A DNA stretch of 64,000 nucleotides. Source: Acidobacteriota bacterium. Its GTDB lineage: Bacteria; Acidobacteriota; Terriglobia; Bryobacterales; Bryobacteraceae. The DNA lies in the NCBI GenBank assembly GCA_016185425.1, contig JACPNQ010000028.1, positions 310,001 to 374,000 of the forward strand, read 5' to 3'. The position numbers and the translations under genes were made by a program. Shown one piece after another: positions 6,129 to 16,287 of this stretch. The number at the start of each line of letters is the position of its first letter. Position 1 is the first letter of the stretch. The notes beneath the pieces are model-generated. The model was not told the origin of the DNA. It worked only from the letters and a program-made list of their open reading frames with translations, and did not search any database.

Positions 6129-6563
6129 ATGTGGCGGAATTGGGCATTGTGCGTCTTGTTAGTGGTAACCGGATGCGGGAAGGCGGAGGATCGGATGCCT
6201 TCGTTCAAGACGAAGTTTGCCAAGGCGGCGGTGGATAGCGATTTCGGCGACTTCATCGAGGAGCACGCCGGCGAGAAAGTGAAACTCGACTTGCAGTGGG
6301 AGCGCGGAGCGTTCGACGGCGCGTCGGAGAAGGACTTTCAGTTCTTCGTGCTGTTCGAGAGTTGCGGGGAGGCGCTGGAGAAGGGTGAGAAGCCGACCAT
6401 TTACAACTGCAGCGGGACGGAGTACAACGTGCCGAAGGTGGAAGGGAAGGCGCTGATTACGGAAGATGGCGGCGTATTCCGGTTGCGCGGCGTCTTTGAA
6501 CCGAGCGAGAGGACGGGGCCGCTGCAAGGGCTGTTCGCGGTTGAGCTGGCGCCGGCGACTTAG
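6129..6563 (+). CDS. Small putative lipoprotein
   Basis: A 144-residue protein beginning with a short signal peptide and lipobox-like LVVTGC, with C16 as the probable lipidated residue. The remainder is charged and has beta-type periodicity; two further cysteines (ESCGEA, YNCSG) could form a disulfide. It starts 5 bp after the flavoprotein stop, so it is probably the last gene of that operon. No family is recognised. Its TAG stop abuts the stop of the convergent gene at 6564 with no bases between. Confidence 0.7.
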   Translation: MWRNWALCVLLVVTGCGKAEDRMPSFKTKFAKAAVDSDFGDFIEEHAGEKVKLDLQWERGAFDGASEKDFQFFVLFESCGEALEKGEKPTIYNCSGTEYNVPKVEGKALITEDGGVFRLRGVFEPSERTGPLQGLFAVELAPAT

Positions 6564-7106
6564 TTAGGCGGCCCAATCCCAATCCGCGGCGTGCGTGTCG
6601 GTGAGAGAGAAGGCGCAGTTGCCGGGATCGATGCCTTCGAAGCGGACGCGGCCTTTGTTATCGAGCGTACCGGTTTGAATGGCACCGTCGGGGAGCATGC
6701 AAGTGAACCCGCGGCCGATGACCGGTTTGCCGTTTTCATCGACGACTTCCATTTCAACCCAGGTCTTAACGACCTTCGCCTTCTTGAGTTGTTCGGCGAC
6801 GGGTTCGGGAGTGGGCAGGCGGAGGACCGGGATGGTCAAGTTCTCACGGAACAGAACCCACTGGCCGGACTGCACGGCGCGCAGCATCCGGGCGCCTTTG
6901 ACCGCGCCGCGATTGGTTCCGCCGTCGATGGCATGGGCGAGCTCCGCCAGTTGGTTCACGTCGCCCGGGTTCATCAGCGCGCGTTCGATGACGCGGGCAG
7001 CGAACTGCGCGGGCAGAGGGGATAGGCCGGCGTGCACATCGGCGCTTCGCATAGCGATATAGCGGGCGCCGGCGGCCCGCAGCTTGTAAGTGCGGTGAAA
7101 AGGCAT
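6564..7106 (-). CDS. Type VI secretion-associated Ig-like (beta-sandwich) domain protein
   Basis: A 180-residue protein. Residues 1-110 hold a mostly helical segment with no recognised family. From about residue 122 it carries a pattern WVEMEVVDENGKPVIG, then LPDGAIQTGTLDNKGRVRFEG and a final PGNCAFSLTD. This kind of beta-sandwich decoration is seen on proteins encoded near VgrG/T6SS loci, where it follows a W-E/I-E-x-x-V-D-x-x-G-x-P pattern. The same pattern occurs twice in the broken gene at 15470-16287. The gene is divergent from the LysM gene at 7201, which carries a comparable segment, so they may act together. No VgrG, Hcp or sheath gene is visible here, so a true T6SS link is inference. 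Confidence 0.6.
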   Translation of the reverse strand: MPFHRTYKLRAAGARYIAMRSADVHAGLSPLPAQFAARVIERALMNPGDVNQLAELAHAIDGGTNRGAVKGARMLRAVQSGQWVLFRENLTIPVLRLPTPEPVAEQLKKAKVVKTWVEMEVVDENGKPVIGRGFTCMLPDGAIQTGTLDNKGRVRFEGIDPGNCAFSLTDTHAADWDWAA

Positions 7107-7200
7107 CTCGTACTGATATGCGATTCAGGGCCGCAAACGGGGCCAGAATAAATGCGAAATAATGCGACCCTATTGCTCATCGATTTCCGCGAATGGCAGT

Positions 7201-7851
7201 GTGAGCACATCGGCGCAACATGTCGTACGGCAGGGCGAGTGCCTGGTGAAGATTGCGAGCCAGTACGGATTCCAGGATTACCGGGCGGTATACGGTCATG
7301 CGGCTAACGGCGAGTTCCGAAGGAAGCGTCCGAACCCGAACGTGATCTATCCGGGCGATGTGATTGTCATTCCGCCGAAGCAGGTGAAGGAAGTGGTGGC
7401 GGCGACGGGCAAAGTGCACCGGTTCGTCATGCCGGGACCGAAGAAGGTGCTGCGGTTGCGGTTGCGCGATGCGCATGGGGAGGCGATTGCGAATGAGGCG
7501 GCCGCAGTCACGGTGGATGGGGAGAAGCAATCGAAGAAGACCGATGGCGATGGGCTGTTGATTGTCGAAACGCCGATCGGGGCGCGCGCGGCGGTCATCG
7601 AGATACGCGGACGAAAGCTACCGGTGGACTTGAGTCATTTGAATCCGGTGTCGGACGTGCCGGACGACGGTGTGTCGGGCGTGCAGCACCGGCTGCGCAA
7701 TTTGGGTTATTACAGCGGTCCGGAGACAGAGACGTTTACGCGACAGACGCGATTGGCGCTGTGGCTCTTTCAGTTCGATCACGATTTGAAAACAGACGGA
7801 AGGCCGACGGCCGAGACGATACAACGGCTGGTGGCCGAGCATGGGTGCTAG
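7201..7851 (+). CDS. LysM plus peptidoglycan-binding domain protein
   Basis: About 216 residues, read from a GTG at 7201; an in-frame ATG at 7162 is an alternative but neither has a strong ribosome site. Residues 5-55 form a LysM module (HVVRQGECLVKIASQYGF, ending NVIYPGDVIVIPP). A central Ig-like stretch follows (VLRLRLRDAHGEAIANEAA). The C-terminus is a peptidoglycan-binding module (GVQHRLRNLGYYSG, then TRLALWLFQFDHDLKTDG). The order LysM, Ig-like, peptidoglycan-binding is common in proteins encoded beside VgrG/T6SS components. There is no obvious signal peptide, which fits export by an injection machine or a cytoplasmic baseplate role. First gene of a coupled cassette running to 12502. Confidence 0.78.
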   Translation: MSTSAQHVVRQGECLVKIASQYGFQDYRAVYGHAANGEFRRKRPNPNVIYPGDVIVIPPKQVKEVVAATGKVHRFVMPGPKKVLRLRLRDAHGEAIANEAAAVTVDGEKQSKKTDGDGLLIVETPIGARAAVIEIRGRKLPVDLSHLNPVSDVPDDGVSGVQHRLRNLGYYSGPETETFTRQTRLALWLFQFDHDLKTDGRPTAETIQRLVAEHGC

Positions 7852-7854
7852 GCG

Positions 7855-8349
7855 ATGAAACCCTATTCAGTGGCGTTGTTCAACAAGGGCGAGGAGGACG
7901 TGAACACGATCGTACTGCCGGGGACGGAGATCATCATTCCGCTCGAAGAGGATGTAGATTGCGATCCGTTTCAGGATGATGAGATCCGGCTGATGGATCT
8001 GTGTGGGGAAGGGTATGAGCGAATCGTGAAGTCGAGCGATCCGGAGGCCGTGCCGAATCACGACGAGCGGCTGATTTACTACCACTTTACGGACGTGCCG
8101 GCGGGGCTATACCGGCTGTCGGTGCGAATCGGCGGGCACTGGGTGGACCTGGCGAGCGATTTGATCGTAACGCCAAAGGGTGCGTTCCTCGGGAAAGACA
8201 AACTGGGAAAGTCGGCGCCGCAGGTGCAGTTCGACTCGCGGCCGGTGCCAGAAGAGCCCGTGTTGCCGAAGGGCAGGCCGGCTTCACCGCGGCTGTTGCC
8301 GAAGCACATGGATCAGAATCCGAATCGTTGGGATTGGGGGAGCCGCTGA
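7855..8349 (+). CDS. Unknown small protein of the wall-hydrolase cassette
   Basis: A 164-residue protein, no signal peptide, no cysteine-rich or membrane segment. It is rich in acidic residues in the first half (IPLEEDVDCDPFQDDEIRL) and has a beta-type middle (DVPAGLYRLSVRIGGHWVDL) that resembles a carboxypeptidase-regulatory or Ig-like sandwich. The last 35 residues are proline-rich and probably disordered. It starts 3 bp after the LysM gene stop, and its TGA overlaps the ATG of the peptidase gene (TGATG), so the three are translated together. Function unknown; the position suggests a chaperone, adaptor or immunity-like partner, but nothing in the sequence proves this. Confidence 0.7.
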   Translation: MKPYSVALFNKGEEDVNTIVLPGTEIIIPLEEDVDCDPFQDDEIRLMDLCGEGYERIVKSSDPEAVPNHDERLIYYHFTDVPAGLYRLSVRIGGHWVDLASDLIVTPKGAFLGKDKLGKSAPQVQFDSRPVPEEPVLPKGRPASPRLLPKHMDQNPNRWDWGSR

Positions 8350-10796
8350 TGTTGTTCATGCCGTTTTATTTCGCGCCGTGCTCGCTGGTGGGGTTTGTCC
8401 GCTGCACGGGCGGCCATGCGTTGACGTCCCTCTTTGTGCTGTTCCGGCCGAAGGCGGCGGAGAACTTGCCGGAAGAGATTGCCGCCGAGTTGACGACGGA
8501 GTTTTCACTCGCCTGGACGGGGCCGGCAGGGCACATGTTGCTGGTGGATCCGAGCGACGGACCGGAGATTCATAAGAGTTATTACAAGCACGACGACTTG
8601 ACCCCGCATGGTGTGAAGTTGATGAGCAACCGCACGTATGATTGCTTTTTTGTGCGGCATCCGGATGTGGAGTGGGTGAAGGAGGCATGGGCGGAGTTGA
8701 ACGGGAAGCTGCCTCTGTCGAAGACGAAGGACTGGTTTCCGACTCCGGTGAAGCCGGAGATTGACGAGTATCAGCCGCCGAAGCTCGACAAGGACACGCC
8801 GGCGCCGCCGGCCTACAACGTGTTGACGTTGAAGGTAGGGGAAGATCCGGGTAAGTATTATCCACGCGGGCCGGAACGGTATGGGAAGTGGCTGTTGTAT
8901 AAAGACATGCCGAACGCGGAGTGTCCGCTTGCCCGGAAGGCCGTGAACGGGTTGCAGCTCGACCTGGGAAGGCTGCGGTACATGGTGGGCGCCGAGCATC
9001 CGTACATGCCGGAGAAGTTGCACGATAACAAAGACAACATCAACGAGTTCAACGAGGGAAAGTTCGACGGTCGAACGATCAACTCGGTGTACCTGTTTCA
9101 GCGGGATGTGCAATCCGGCGCCGGGAAGAAGGTGGATCCGAAGGCGACGATTGCACTGGCGGGACCTGATGAGACCGAGACGAGCAGCCTGGCCTACCTG
9201 AGCGATGAGGATTATGCGGGTGGGCCGCGCGCGATAACAGTAGACGGCGTTGTGGATCAGCAGACCTGCGATGCGCTGGAGCAGCGGCTGCGCGATGGCG
9301 TGGTGAATCCGCTGAACATCATGGTCTGTACGCTGGCGCGGGATGGGGCGCCGAAATTGAATTGGAACGTGTGGATGCGCCCGGAGGCCGCGGCATCGCT
9401 GTATTGCTGGCGGGAGCTGGCGCGGGCGCTGGGATTTCCGTTGACTGTCGCGGCGAATCATACCTTTCGATCAGCGGCTGTGAATGTCGGGTCGGCGGGA
9501 TTCGGACGGTCTTGGAAATCGATTCACAAGGTTGGGCTGGCGATCGACGTGGGACTGGATAGGACGTACTTCCAGGCGGCGGACGATTGGCCGGTGTTTT
9601 ATCAGCGTGACCTTTCGGTGGATAAGAAGAACAAGAAGAAGGATGTGGAAGGGTATCGCATTTACTGGCGGGTATTTGCGATTACGAACTACATGATTCC
9701 GGAGCCGGATTCGATTGCGCTGTGCCGGGCCAATTTGGTGGAGGTGACGAAGAACGATCATAAGTTGGGGAAGGTGGCGCGGGAGGCGGCGCTGCGATTG
9801 ATTGATGAGATCGATAAGGGGAAGTTTGCCGCGAAGTATTTCCGGGAGAGGGTGAAGCAGTGGCAGTACGATCCCTGGGACGGAGACGGCGGGAAGGAAG
9901 GACCGGAGGTGAGCGCGCCGGATGCACGGAAGGCGCAGTTGGCGGCGTTCGATGAGTTCTTTGCGGCGAACGAAGGGAAAAAGGGCAAACTGATCGACAA
10001 AAAACGGCACTATTACTCGCATTTCTCGAAGGCAGCGAGCCGATTCCTGGATTTGACGGCGTTAGCGCAGGAGTCAAATCTGGAACGGATCGGCTCGTTC
10101 ACGAATCATTTCGATCCGACGACTACCGGAGAGTGGGGGTTGGGACTCGCGACCTATTCGACGGGCAAGTTTCAGGCCCTGGCCAAGGCGATGAAGGCGT
10201 TGAAGGCGGATCATCCGAATTTCGCGATTGAGATTGCGGGAGAACAGGTGAAGCTGGCGGATGTGGATGTCGATTTTATGGAGGCGTTCGGAGCGGCGCG
10301 GGTGGATTGTGCCGTGGCGCGGGGCAAGGATGCAGAGAAGATGATCGCCGCGTATTGCGAGAAGCTGCGCAAATTTCCGGCGCGGCGATTCGTGCGGACG
10401 CCGGATGACGAGGCGAAGACGGGGGAGGAGTGGGCCGCGGCGATCGAGGCGAAGCTGGAGGAAGTGAAGACGGCCGCGCCGGTGAACAAGAAGGATTCGA
10501 GCAAGGGATCGACGAAGAAGAAAGACTCGGCGGGGTGGACGTTTCGGTTGTCGCCGGACTATGGTGTGGTGTTTCCATTGAAGACGGGGGTGTACATGCC
10601 GTCGCCGGGCGCGCCGATCGGGTTGGAGTGGTGGCATTTTCAGGTGTCGTCGTTGATCGACAACCGGGCATTCGGGCCGCTGATTTGCGAGATGGGATGG
10701 ACGAAAGAGACGCTGCTGGATGAGCCGCAGCCGCATTTGCACTATCGTATTGGGATGGGTTATCCGCAGAACGCCTGGACGGACCAGGCAGGATGA
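8349..10796 (+). CDS. Putative LAS/M15-type peptidoglycan peptidase with a split active site
   Basis: An 815-residue protein, started at the ATG at 8349 that overlaps the previous stop; a start at 8328 is possible. Around residues 200-310 there are pieces like a peptidoglycan-binding module (LYLFQRD-type and VDGVVDQQTCDALEQRL). The motif SIHKVGLAIDVG gives the SxHxxGxAxD signature of M15 D,D-peptidases with H393 and D400. The second signature, EWWHFQV, lies near the C-terminus with E760 and H763. In known M15 enzymes the two lie roughly 60-70 residues apart; here about 360 separate them. The insert includes a lysine-rich linker around residues 715-730 (KKDSSKGSTKKKDS). All zinc ligands and the catalytic Glu appear present, so activity on wall peptides is plausible. 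No signal peptide. Its stop overlaps the next gene (ATGA). Confidence 0.7.
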   Translation: MLFMPFYFAPCSLVGFVRCTGGHALTSLFVLFRPKAAENLPEEIAAELTTEFSLAWTGPAGHMLLVDPSDGPEIHKSYYKHDDLTPHGVKLMSNRTYDCFFVRHPDVEWVKEAWAELNGKLPLSKTKDWFPTPVKPEIDEYQPPKLDKDTPAPPAYNVLTLKVGEDPGKYYPRGPERYGKWLLYKDMPNAECPLARKAVNGLQLDLGRLRYMVGAEHPYMPEKLHDNKDNINEFNEGKFDGRTINSVYLFQRDVQSGAGKKVDPKATIALAGPDETETSSLAYLSDEDYAGGPRAITVDGVVDQQTCDALEQRLRDGVVNPLNIMVCTLARDGAPKLNWNVWMRPEAAASLYCWRELARALGFPLTVAANHTFRSAAVNVGSAGFGRSWKSIHKVGLAIDVGLDRTYFQAADDWPVFYQRDLSVDKKNKKKDVEGYRIYWRVFAITNYMIPEPDSIALCRANLVEVTKNDHKLGKVAREAALRLIDEIDKGKFAAKYFRERVKQWQYDPWDGDGGKEGPEVSAPDARKAQLAAFDEFFAANEGKKGKLIDKKRHYYSHFSKAASRFLDLTALAQESNLERIGSFTNHFDPTTTGEWGLGLATYSTGKFQALAKAMKALKADHPNFAIEIAGEQVKLADVDVDFMEAFGAARVDCAVARGKDAEKMIAAYCEKLRKFPARRFVRTPDDEAKTGEEWAAAIEAKLEEVKTAAPVNKKDSSKGSTKKKDSAGWTFRLSPDYGVVFPLKTGVYMPSPGAPIGLEWWHFQVSSLIDNRAFGPLICEMGWTKETLLDEPQPHLHYRIGMGYPQNAWTDQAG

Positions 10797-12502
10797 ACCG
10801 GCGCGAGTGGCTCGCATTGGCCGGCGCGGGCGGGCTGGCGGGGCAGGGTGTGGCGAGCCGGACCGTGAAGGCGATGCCGCGAGGGAAGCCTTCGGGGCTG
10901 CCGTTTCATGCAAAGTTTGCCGATATAGGGCGGCAGGCGGGCTTGCGGCATCCAGGGGTGTATGGGGGCGTGGATACGAAGCCATACATTCTTGAGTCGG
11001 TCGGGTGCGGGGTGGCGTTTATCGACTACGATAATGACGGATGGCTGGACATCTTCGTATTGAACGGGACGCGATTTGGGGGAGCGCCGGCCGGGACCTC
11101 GAACCGGCTTTATAAGAACAACCGGGACGGGACCTTTTCGGATGTGACGGAGAAGGCGGGGCTGGTGAAGGAAGGTTGGGCATCGGCGGTTTGCGCGGGG
11201 GATTTCAACAACAACGGGTTCCCGGATTTGTTTGTGACTTACTGGGGGCAGAATGTCTTGTACCGGAACAACGGGGACGGAACCTTCACTGATGTTACGA
11301 AAGAGGCCGGGTTAGTGGATGCGAAGCGGCGATGGGGCGCGGGGTGCACGTTTGTCGACTATGACCGGGACGGGAAGCTGGACCTGTTTGTGACGAACTA
11401 CGTGGACTTCGATCCGGCACGTGTGCCGAAGCCGGGGCAGAACTCGTTCTGTACGTGGAAGGGAATACCAGTGAATTGCGGGCCGCTGGGTTTGCCGCCG
11501 GGAAGCCACTCGCTTTACCGCAACAATGGAGACGGCACGTTCACCGACGTGACGGCTCAGAGCGGGGTGGGGAAGGCGAAGGGGTCGTACGGGATGACAG
11601 CCGTGGCGGCGGATTTCGATAACGACGGGTGGCCGGATATTTATGTAGCGTGCGATTCGACGCCGAGCTTTCTGTTCAGGAACAATCACGACGGAACGTT
11701 TAGCGAGGTGGCGCTGGAGAACGGAGTGGCGTTGAACGACGACGGGATGGAGCAGGCGGGAATGGGGATCGGAGTCGGGGATTACGACCTGGACGGTAGC
11801 TTAGATATTTTCAAGACCCATTTTGCGGATGATACGAATATTCTGTACAAGAACGACGGGAAGGGTAACTTCCAGGACATGACGATCCGGAGCGGGTTGG
11901 GGGTGGAGACGCGGTTTGTGGGTTGGGGCGCGGGGATTCACGATCTGGACAATGACGGAAACCCGGATCTGTTCTTTGTGACGGGCAGCGTCTATCCGGA
12001 GGTGGAGAAAAAGCTGGCTTCGTATCCTTACAAGACGCCGCGGATTGTGTTCCGGAACCTCGGGAATGGTGTATTCGAGGAGCTGACGCTGGATTTGGAG
12101 GCGCAGTCGAGCCGGGGGTGCGCGTTTGGGGATTTCGACAACGATGGGGATGTGGACGTGCTCATTTGGAACATGGACGCGCCGCCGACATTGCTTCGGA
12201 ACGATTTGCCGGCGGCACTGGGGCGGCATTGGATCAAGGTGAAGTTAGAGGGAGTTACTTCGAACCGGTCGGCGATTGGCGGGCGGGTAACTTGTATTTA
12301 TGGCGGAAAAAAACAGGCCCAGGAAGTGTTGAGCCAAGCCAGTTTCTATTCGGTGAACGACTGGCGGCTGCACTTCGGTCTGGGCCCTGCCAAGGTGGTG
12401 GACTTAGAAGTCCGCTGGCCTTCGGGTAAGAAGGAGACGTTCCGCGGGGTTGAGGCGGATCGCCTAGTGACGATACGCGAAGGCCAGGGAATTGTTTCTT
12501 AA
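10793..12502 (+). CDS. CRTAC1-type protein: FG-GAP/VCBS repeats with ASPIC/UnbV domain
   Basis: A 569-residue protein. It opens with a twin-arginine-like leader (NRREWLALAGAGGLAG). Several FG-GAP/VCBS repeats follow, each with a calcium-loop pattern such as FIDYDNDGWLDIFV, FNNNGFPDLFVTYW, FVDYDRDGKLDLFV and FGDFDNDGDVDVLI; they probably form a beta-propeller. The C-terminal 90 residues are an ASPIC/UnbV domain (GRHWIKVKLEG, then VDLEVRWPSGKKETF). Such proteins are exported and their biochemical role is poorly known. The ATG overlaps the peptidase stop by 4 bp, suggesting cotranslation, though functional connection to the peptidase is uncertain. Confidence 0.9.
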   Translation: MNRREWLALAGAGGLAGQGVASRTVKAMPRGKPSGLPFHAKFADIGRQAGLRHPGVYGGVDTKPYILESVGCGVAFIDYDNDGWLDIFVLNGTRFGGAPAGTSNRLYKNNRDGTFSDVTEKAGLVKEGWASAVCAGDFNNNGFPDLFVTYWGQNVLYRNNGDGTFTDVTKEAGLVDAKRRWGAGCTFVDYDRDGKLDLFVTNYVDFDPARVPKPGQNSFCTWKGIPVNCGPLGLPPGSHSLYRNNGDGTFTDVTAQSGVGKAKGSYGMTAVAADFDNDGWPDIYVACDSTPSFLFRNNHDGTFSEVALENGVALNDDGMEQAGMGIGVGDYDLDGSLDIFKTHFADDTNILYKNDGKGNFQDMTIRSGLGVETRFVGWGAGIHDLDNDGNPDLFFVTGSVYPEVEKKLASYPYKTPRIVFRNLGNGVFEELTLDLEAQSSRGCAFGDFDNDGDVDVLIWNMDAPPTLLRNDLPAALGRHWIKVKLEGVTSNRSAIGGRVTCIYGGKKQAQEVLSQASFYSVNDWRLHFGLGPAKVVDLEVRWPSGKKETFRGVEADRLVTIREGQGIVS

Positions 12503-15450: not shown

Positions 15451-15469
15451 GCCCAGAGCGGAGGCTAGA

Positions 15470-16287
15470 TTAAATTGGTCTTTGACACCATTTTTGGGCT
15501 TTGGCGTAGAGTTGGGCGATGCGGAAGTCGCCGGGGGATTCGCGGTCGCCGAGGATTGCGGCGGTCGAAGTCGCGGCCGAATACCATCTGCACGTTGAGA
15601 TAACGGGCGACCTGGCGCTCGGTCGTGAACCCGTAGGTTTGGGCGGTGGACATGCCGCGGGCAGCTCGGCCTTGATTGGCGCTTCTTCCGATTCCAGAGC
15701 GGGGGGCGGCGGAGGGGTATCGGGCCGCCACCATGTGTTCTCGCGGGAAGGAAAGACGACTTTGACGATGCTGTTGGGGAGGCCTTCGAGGCGCGCGAAG
15801 CCTACTTCGTCCAGCTCGCCTTTCAGGATGCGGCCGGTGCCGAGGTGGACTTCGTAGGGTTCCCAGGGAATGATTCTGCCGGTGTCGTCGACAAGGGTGA
15901 TTTCGATCCAAGCGTCGGTAATGATCGGCAGCTCCGCTTCTTCCGGCGGGGTAATTTCGAGGGGGGTGGAGGCTGGACAGGGGGGACGGGTTCCCACCAG
16001 CTTTTCTCGCGGCTGGGGAAGAGAACCCTGCAGGAGCCGCTGGGGAGGTGGTCGTGACGGGCGTAGCCGTTCTCGTCGAGCTCACCGTTGATGGGATCCT
16101 GGCCGGGCGGATAGAGAATGTAGGGTTCGTTAGCGCGCGGCTTTCCTACGTTGTCGACGAGGTGGATTTCGATCCAGTGCGTTTTTGCGAGAGGGCACTC
16201 GGCGACAGTTTGTCCAACCGGGGCGTTTGAAAACGAGGCGTTTGCCAACTCATCCGCATCTCGCAGCAGCTCTCCATCCGGCATCAA
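15470..16287 (-). pseudogene. Frameshifted T6SS-associated Ig-like repeat protein
   Basis: One protein can be followed through three frame changes. Frame 1 from the ATG at 16287 reads HWIEIHLVDNVGKP and ends in FPSREKSWWEP. Near 15960 the sense moves to another frame with a second copy, AWIEITLVDDTGR followed by FPSRENTWW. Near 15660 it moves again to MSTAQTYGFTTERQVARYLN and VFGRDFD. Near 15560 it returns to the second frame for DFRIAQLYAKAQKW and stops at 15470. The two sandwich copies resemble the gene at 6564. Several shifts lie next to runs of C or G, so sequencing error must be excluded; otherwise it is a true pseudogene. Confidence 0.72.

Follow-up and report, generated by a model that had tools for sequence, protein, structure and literature searches.

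The 64,000-nucleotide stretch of Acidobacteriota DNA analysed here (the window) encodes an LAS-type peptidase with an expanded catalytic domain (8349..10796, + strand, 815 aa), assigned from its open frame, its homologues and its invariant motif residues. Comparison with more compact relatives indicates that the protein contains one LAS-type core, the extra sequence forming several loop expansions between core elements that have been retained. We consider it probable, on balance, that the protein is a zinc-dependent LAS-type peptidoglycan peptidase with a VanX-like E-x-x-H motif and an endolysin-related, loop-expanded core, serving as T6SS-type cargo directed against the walls of other bacteria.

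The peptidase frame begins at an ATG at position 8349 and contains zero internal stops; a TTG located 21 bases upstream of this ATG is also a possible start. A sequence-only reading had placed both LAS motifs in this single frame, which our analysis confirmed: SIHKVGLAID spans residues 391-400 (9519..9548, + strand) with H393 and D400 as putative zinc ligands, and EWWHFQ spans residues 760-765 (10626..10643, + strand) with E760 as putative general base and H763 as a further putative zinc ligand, the distance from D400 to H763 being 363 residues. A loop-interrupted, peptidoglycan-binding-like region precedes the catalytic domain (residues ~191-330, 8919..9338, + strand), based on alignment with residues 247-294 of a divergent homologue, L086, which give a weak PG_binding_1 match (E 0.0082). 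The Pfam scan of the window protein itself produced zero direct PG-binding matches in residues ~191-330.

Searched on its own, the window protein returned zero relatives from Pfam, PDB sequences, genome contigs, plasmids and phages, and a single-sequence search of 396 genomes sampled over the phylum found the peptidase gene only in its own genome. Homologues were obtained by a family-level search first and by profiles afterwards. The gene is rare, being present in 4 of 200 genomes in the single-sequence search at family level and in 5 of 19 genomes in the profile search at genus level. Its Acidobacteriota relatives are Candidatus Sulfopaludibacter, Acidobacteriales and Bryobacterales MAGs, to which the profile searches added homologues from Polyangium (Myxococcota; 35-37% identity over nearly full length) and a divergent long form in one Myxococcota genome (G976, locus L086). 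The complete long forms comprise the window protein and 10 full-length homologues from Candidatus Sulfopaludibacter, Polyangium and the one divergent Myxococcota (n=11), the homologues being 23-37% identical to the window protein. Residues H393, G396, A398, D400, E760, W761, W762, H763 and Q765 are invariant in all 11, with R374, S391 and I392 nearly so, and judged from this alignment the conservation of the motifs exceeds chance. None of the complete homologues lacks one motif while keeping the rest, both motifs being present in each at D-to-H spacings of 280, 280, 363, 377-380, 556 and 596 residues. The L086 protein (L086:7653-10853) has HPHKTGHAID in place of SIHKxGxAxD (P for S), lacks the upstream Arg, and may differ in activity.

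Pfam, NCBIfam and PDB-sequence searches gave no match that names the window protein, and the M15 models of Pfam and NCBIfam matched neither long nor compact forms; we therefore refer to a divergent LAS-like family outside the named M15 subfamilies. The first compact relatives were two 403-aa Myxococcota proteins with a weak profile match and motifs 92 residues apart. Two further bacterial proteins brought the Myxococcota compact proteins to four in all (bacterial loci are labelled L087-L092), and loci with compact relatives were recovered from viral contigs in sets of 13 and then 79 (L095-L181), with contigs partly shared between both sets. The spacing between motifs in compact relatives ranges from 90 to 130 residues (median 96.5, n=42), and the motif positions are also kept in these 42 with few exceptions. 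Measured against these nearest uninserted relatives, the excess between the motifs of the window protein, initially put at about 360 residues, is corrected to ~265. Several compact relatives carry a PG_binding_1 domain ahead of the LAS domain in the style of endolysins. A profile of the four compact proteins matches 1LBU (E 2e-14) over the first catalytic motif as well as the PG-binding domain, the latter supplying much of the score, and a LAS-only compact profile has LysB4 (6AKV) as its top, weak PDB hit (E 0.011). Two long, baseplate-like proteins from viral contigs (L105:916-3705, 929 aa, and L106:724-3636, 970 aa) end in a compact LAS domain.

Core and insert boundaries were drawn from a 53-row alignment, based on the window residues that are occupied by compact sequences. 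Against the window protein the compact LAS profile reaches an E-value of 1.8e-10, relative to a seven-sequence set, with three collinear segments comprising residues 340 to ~445 (the aligner extends this first match to 479), 558-589 and 753-770. The expanded domain can be divided accordingly, all on the + strand. Core piece 1 (residues 337-421, 9357..9611), with R374 and SIHKVGLAID, was delimited by profile match and occupancy, and is followed by core piece 2 (residues 434-451, 9648..9701), which is occupied by compact relatives. Insert 1 (residues ~452-495, 9702..9833) and insert 2 (residues ~512-559, 9882..10025) flank core piece 3 (residues 497-511, 9837..9881), also occupied by compact relatives and the least certain piece. 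Core piece 4, the strand-helix SKAASRFLDLTALAQESNLERIGS (residues 560-583, 10026..10097), was placed by alignment with compact relatives; insert 3 (residues ~584-756, 10098..10616) lies in the same place in every long form; and core piece 5 (residues 757-790, 10617..10718), with EWWHFQ, again follows from profile match and occupancy. The gap between the motifs holds ~95 residues of LAS core, including the conserved strand-helix 566-583.

Inserts 1 and 2 are variable and nearly absent in L041/L042, leaving insert 3 as the only one substantial in every long form; given the uncertainty of the core piece at 497-511, inserts 1 and 2 are possibly one. In L041/L042 the compact profile gives one collinear match that starts ahead of the first motif and takes in the strand-helix KFLNFTSVCDHFQVKDIGA (residues 359-523); after a single break of ~160 residues it resumes at EWWHFQ. 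Insert 3 of the window protein resembles its Polyangium counterpart and, to a lesser degree, that of L086; a pairwise search did not show kinship between insert 3 of L041/L042 and the others, position alone being common. The proposal of a large domain inserted into the catalytic fold was borne out in that a single LAS-type domain is split and compact relatives of it exist, but the additional sequence consists of several expansions (two or three) with core pieces between them. One giant inserted domain was rejected since compact-profile matches and occupancy place core pieces inside the gap. For the suggested role as a toxin-type gate, the analysis gave evidence in neither direction.

In a maximum-likelihood tree built on core columns only (insert columns excluded; unrooted), the 11 long forms lie on one side of a branch with a support of 100/98, and a single change of state between compact and long suffices on this tree. 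With no root to the tree, gain rather than loss is suggested by 1LBU and LysB4 together with the abundance of compact relatives, and the placement of L041/L042, L043 and L086 is unsure due to a long-branch warning from the tree program. Among Polyangium sequences dN/dS was ~0.15 for the core, 0.15 for insert 3 and 0.32 for inserts 1 and 2 together. By these ratios, insert 3 is under purifying selection in Polyangium and is a constrained element, no filler. They also bear on whether the protein is a catalytically dead member of the LAS fold, whose pocket and peptidoglycan-binding parts merely bind peptidoglycan, as might be supposed from the HPHKTGHAID motif of L086 without its upstream Arg and from the large loops beside the active site, which could block it. 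We consider this very unlikely, given that the core is under purifying selection and that none of the complete long forms, L086 among them, departs at the putative zinc-ligand and general-base positions.

Structure prediction using AlphaFold was unusable for the full-length protein with the 11-row alignment (pLDDT 49), and reached moderate confidence for residues 335-815 with the 53-row alignment (pLDDT 74, pTM 0.69). D400 and H763 lie in predicted strands of the latter model, pLDDT is ~96 at residues 565-574, and within insert 3 an alpha/beta stretch (~605-709) is predicted to lead into a linker, mostly of low confidence, that reaches to ~755. Foldseek searches of the PDB and viral models with the 335-815 model gave no significant match; an LdcB LD-carboxypeptidase in the PDB list (E 3.4) was discounted as evidence. 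Long insertions may defeat Foldseek matching, and this null result lends no support. Together with the lack of a curated M15 model, it could be read as a sign that the LAS-like motif pair sits on a different fold or serves a different substrate, for example in another zinc enzyme. Such an alternative seems highly improbable to us, as the compact LAS profile matches collinearly over all core pieces and the compact profile matches 1LBU across the first motif.

The peptidase gene belongs to a conserved gene cassette. Directly upstream is a small conserved cassette protein of 164 aa (7855..8349, + strand), whose stop overlaps the peptidase ATG and whose homologue in Polyangium, L043 and L086 also neighbours the gene for the peptidase. 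This is preceded by a putative carrier, a 229-aa LysM - beta - PG_binding_1 (LysM-PGB) protein recognised by Pfam (7162..7851, + strand), with homologues beside VgrG (L031-L033) and in peptidase cassettes, and by a stand-alone transthyretin (TTR)/prealbumin-like protein of 180 aa (6564..7106, - strand) with weak SpaA/CarboxypepD_reg matches in Pfam, which is homologous to L043:5322-5888 and to the VgrG proteins L031-L033. The order of the LysM-PGB, 164-aa and peptidase genes is identical in Polyangium and L043. L086 has all three with the LysM gene placed behind, and in L041:9284-10627 and L042:5737-7080 the small cassette protein forms the rear part of a fusion with an OmpA/PG-binding part, which replaces the LysM-PGB partner. 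Homologues of the TTR-like protein occur as a gene adjoining the peptidase in L043, as stand-alone or fused partners of LysM-PGB in L022, L027 and L029, and as the C-termini of the three VgrG proteins (L031-L033), where a LysM-PGB homologue is the next gene each time.

Other genes in and around these cassettes include ~1120-aa HExxH proteins (HEIGHTLGIAHQ, HEVGHHLFLPH) directly behind LysM-PGB genes at L027:2817-6167 (+) and L030:10091-13459 (+), the latter in the window's own genome, on a different contig; these are possibly other cargo of like cassettes. The gene following the peptidase in the window (10793-12502, + strand) has a four-base overlap with the peptidase stop and encodes a product with FG-GAP/ASPIC-UnbV-like repeats, recognised by eye; it is not kept beside the peptidase in Polyangium. 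Overlapping frames at 15465-16287 (- strand) are weakly similar to the TTR-like protein (E ~1e-4). Next to the TTR gene, a frame at 6129-6563 (+ strand) encodes a protein of 144 aa whose start resembles a lipobox (LVVTGC); it is without a homologue in the other loci, making an immunity role only a guess, and a search for an immunity gene found no conserved candidate.

VgrG TTR-like domains bind effectors (PMC6684961), Tae17 docks on the TTR of its VgrG via an Ig-like and LysM region (PMC11796386), and VgrG2b joins a TTR-like fold to a zinc metallopeptidase (PMC6899460). Based on these studies and on the VgrG kinship of the cassette partners, injected cargo appears the likeliest role, and the peptidase is probably contractile-system (T6SS-type) cargo. 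The neighbours scanned at the peptidase locus include no VgrG, PAAR or T6SS core genes, and no T6SS genes adjoin the Polyangium cassettes in the stretches read. The window's assembly, in 47 contigs and 93.67% complete, gave no TssF and no Phage_GPD/VgrG match. The own genome has only an orphan TssB/TssC-like gene, with no other T6SS genes around it; this gene, on contig C3, encodes a 498-aa protein with TssB-like and TssC-like matches (L079:10462-11958, - strand), and similar second copies are found in most genomes of the genus. A TssC match is present in 18 of the 19 genus genomes and TssF in the other carriers tested, and the T6SS cluster is either missing from the window's assembly or lost. 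Co-occurrence with TssC was dropped as evidence, since 18/19 genus genomes match anyway. A phage-type or eCIS sheath was also considered, with no match in the own genome and matches in three of nine carriers.

The absence of TssF and VgrG from the peptidase's own assembly and the failure to find an immunity gene, together with compact relatives that are mostly endolysin-like viral-contig proteins, speak for a LAS peptidoglycan hydrolase that is active but no injected weapon, either a self-acting enzyme that remodels or lyses the wall, or a phage lysis gene captured along with its accessory proteins. We regard this as a possible but unlikely explanation: relatives of both partners, TTR and LysM-PGB, adjoin VgrG; the peptidase has no N-terminal signal peptide apparent by inspection, such that another exit route would be needed; and no phage genes were found among the neighbours scanned.

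According to the preferred reading of an injected peptidase, zinc would be bound by H393, D400 and H763, with E760 acting as general base and R374 positioned at the substrate, and the enzyme would hydrolyse a bond of the peptidoglycan. The core is related to compact endolysin-like enzymes combining PG-binding and LAS domains, and the gap between the motifs results from two or three loop expansions. The largest of these, insert 3 (584-756), immediately precedes the E-x-x-H strand and probably forms a constrained accessory subdomain close to the active site, for which substrate choice, partner docking or a safety lid are candidate roles. The LysM-beta-PGB, 164-aa and stand-alone TTR-like proteins probably carry or load the peptidase onto a T6SS-type injection apparatus, the presumed target being the wall of other bacteria. 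A bolder proposal, which we advance tentatively and hold to be doubtful, is that a modular carrier cassette of TTR domain, LysM-beta-PGB and small protein loads interchangeable zinc peptidases (LAS endolysin-type here, large HExxH elsewhere) onto contractile injection systems, with insert 3 as the docking or safety element that makes an endolysin injectable.

Several known systems invite comparison. The compact PG-binding and LAS endolysin-like proteins share the motif pair (SxHYxGxAxD and EWWHF) and the core order of the window protein, many with a PG-binding domain in front, but they have 90-130 residues between the motifs compared with 280-596 in the long forms and are without the three expansions. 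The VanX D-Ala-D-Ala dipeptidase (PF01427) is not known to carry a PG-binding domain or large inserts, and its family gave no significant Pfam match to the window protein. The E-x-x-H second motif of the window protein is shared with VanX, for which it has been described (PMC3927764). The zinc D-Ala-D-Ala carboxypeptidase of Streptomyces albus G (1LBU, M15) resembles the window protein in its PG-binding domain followed by a LAS domain, with a profile match through the first motif, but is compact and has H-x-H as its second motif (PMC3927764). TagX, a LAS L,D-endopeptidase of Acinetobacter T6SS clusters (PMC5061870), also ties a LAS peptidase to a T6SS, but is compact (PF13539), belongs to the machine itself as a membrane-bound component and opens the wall of its producer, whereas the window peptidase is a large, soluble-looking protein of a separate cassette. 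Further parallels are Tae17/VgrG17, with an Ig-like and LysM region docking to the VgrG TTR domain (PMC11796386), and VgrG2b, with a TTR-like fold coupled to a zinc metallopeptidase (PMC6899460); in the present case three distinct proteins provide TTR, LysM carrier and enzyme, the last being LAS-type.

If these interpretations are correct, the LAS fold tolerates upwards of 260 additional residues, spread over separate loops, with every catalytic position kept, and the family would tie phage endolysin-type enzymes to a cassette common to Acidobacteriota and Myxococcota. It would also supply candidate antibacterial peptidoglycan peptidases, as a group so far without annotation (no Pfam or NCBIfam match), and with both compact and expanded relatives known, the job of the main insert is directly testable.
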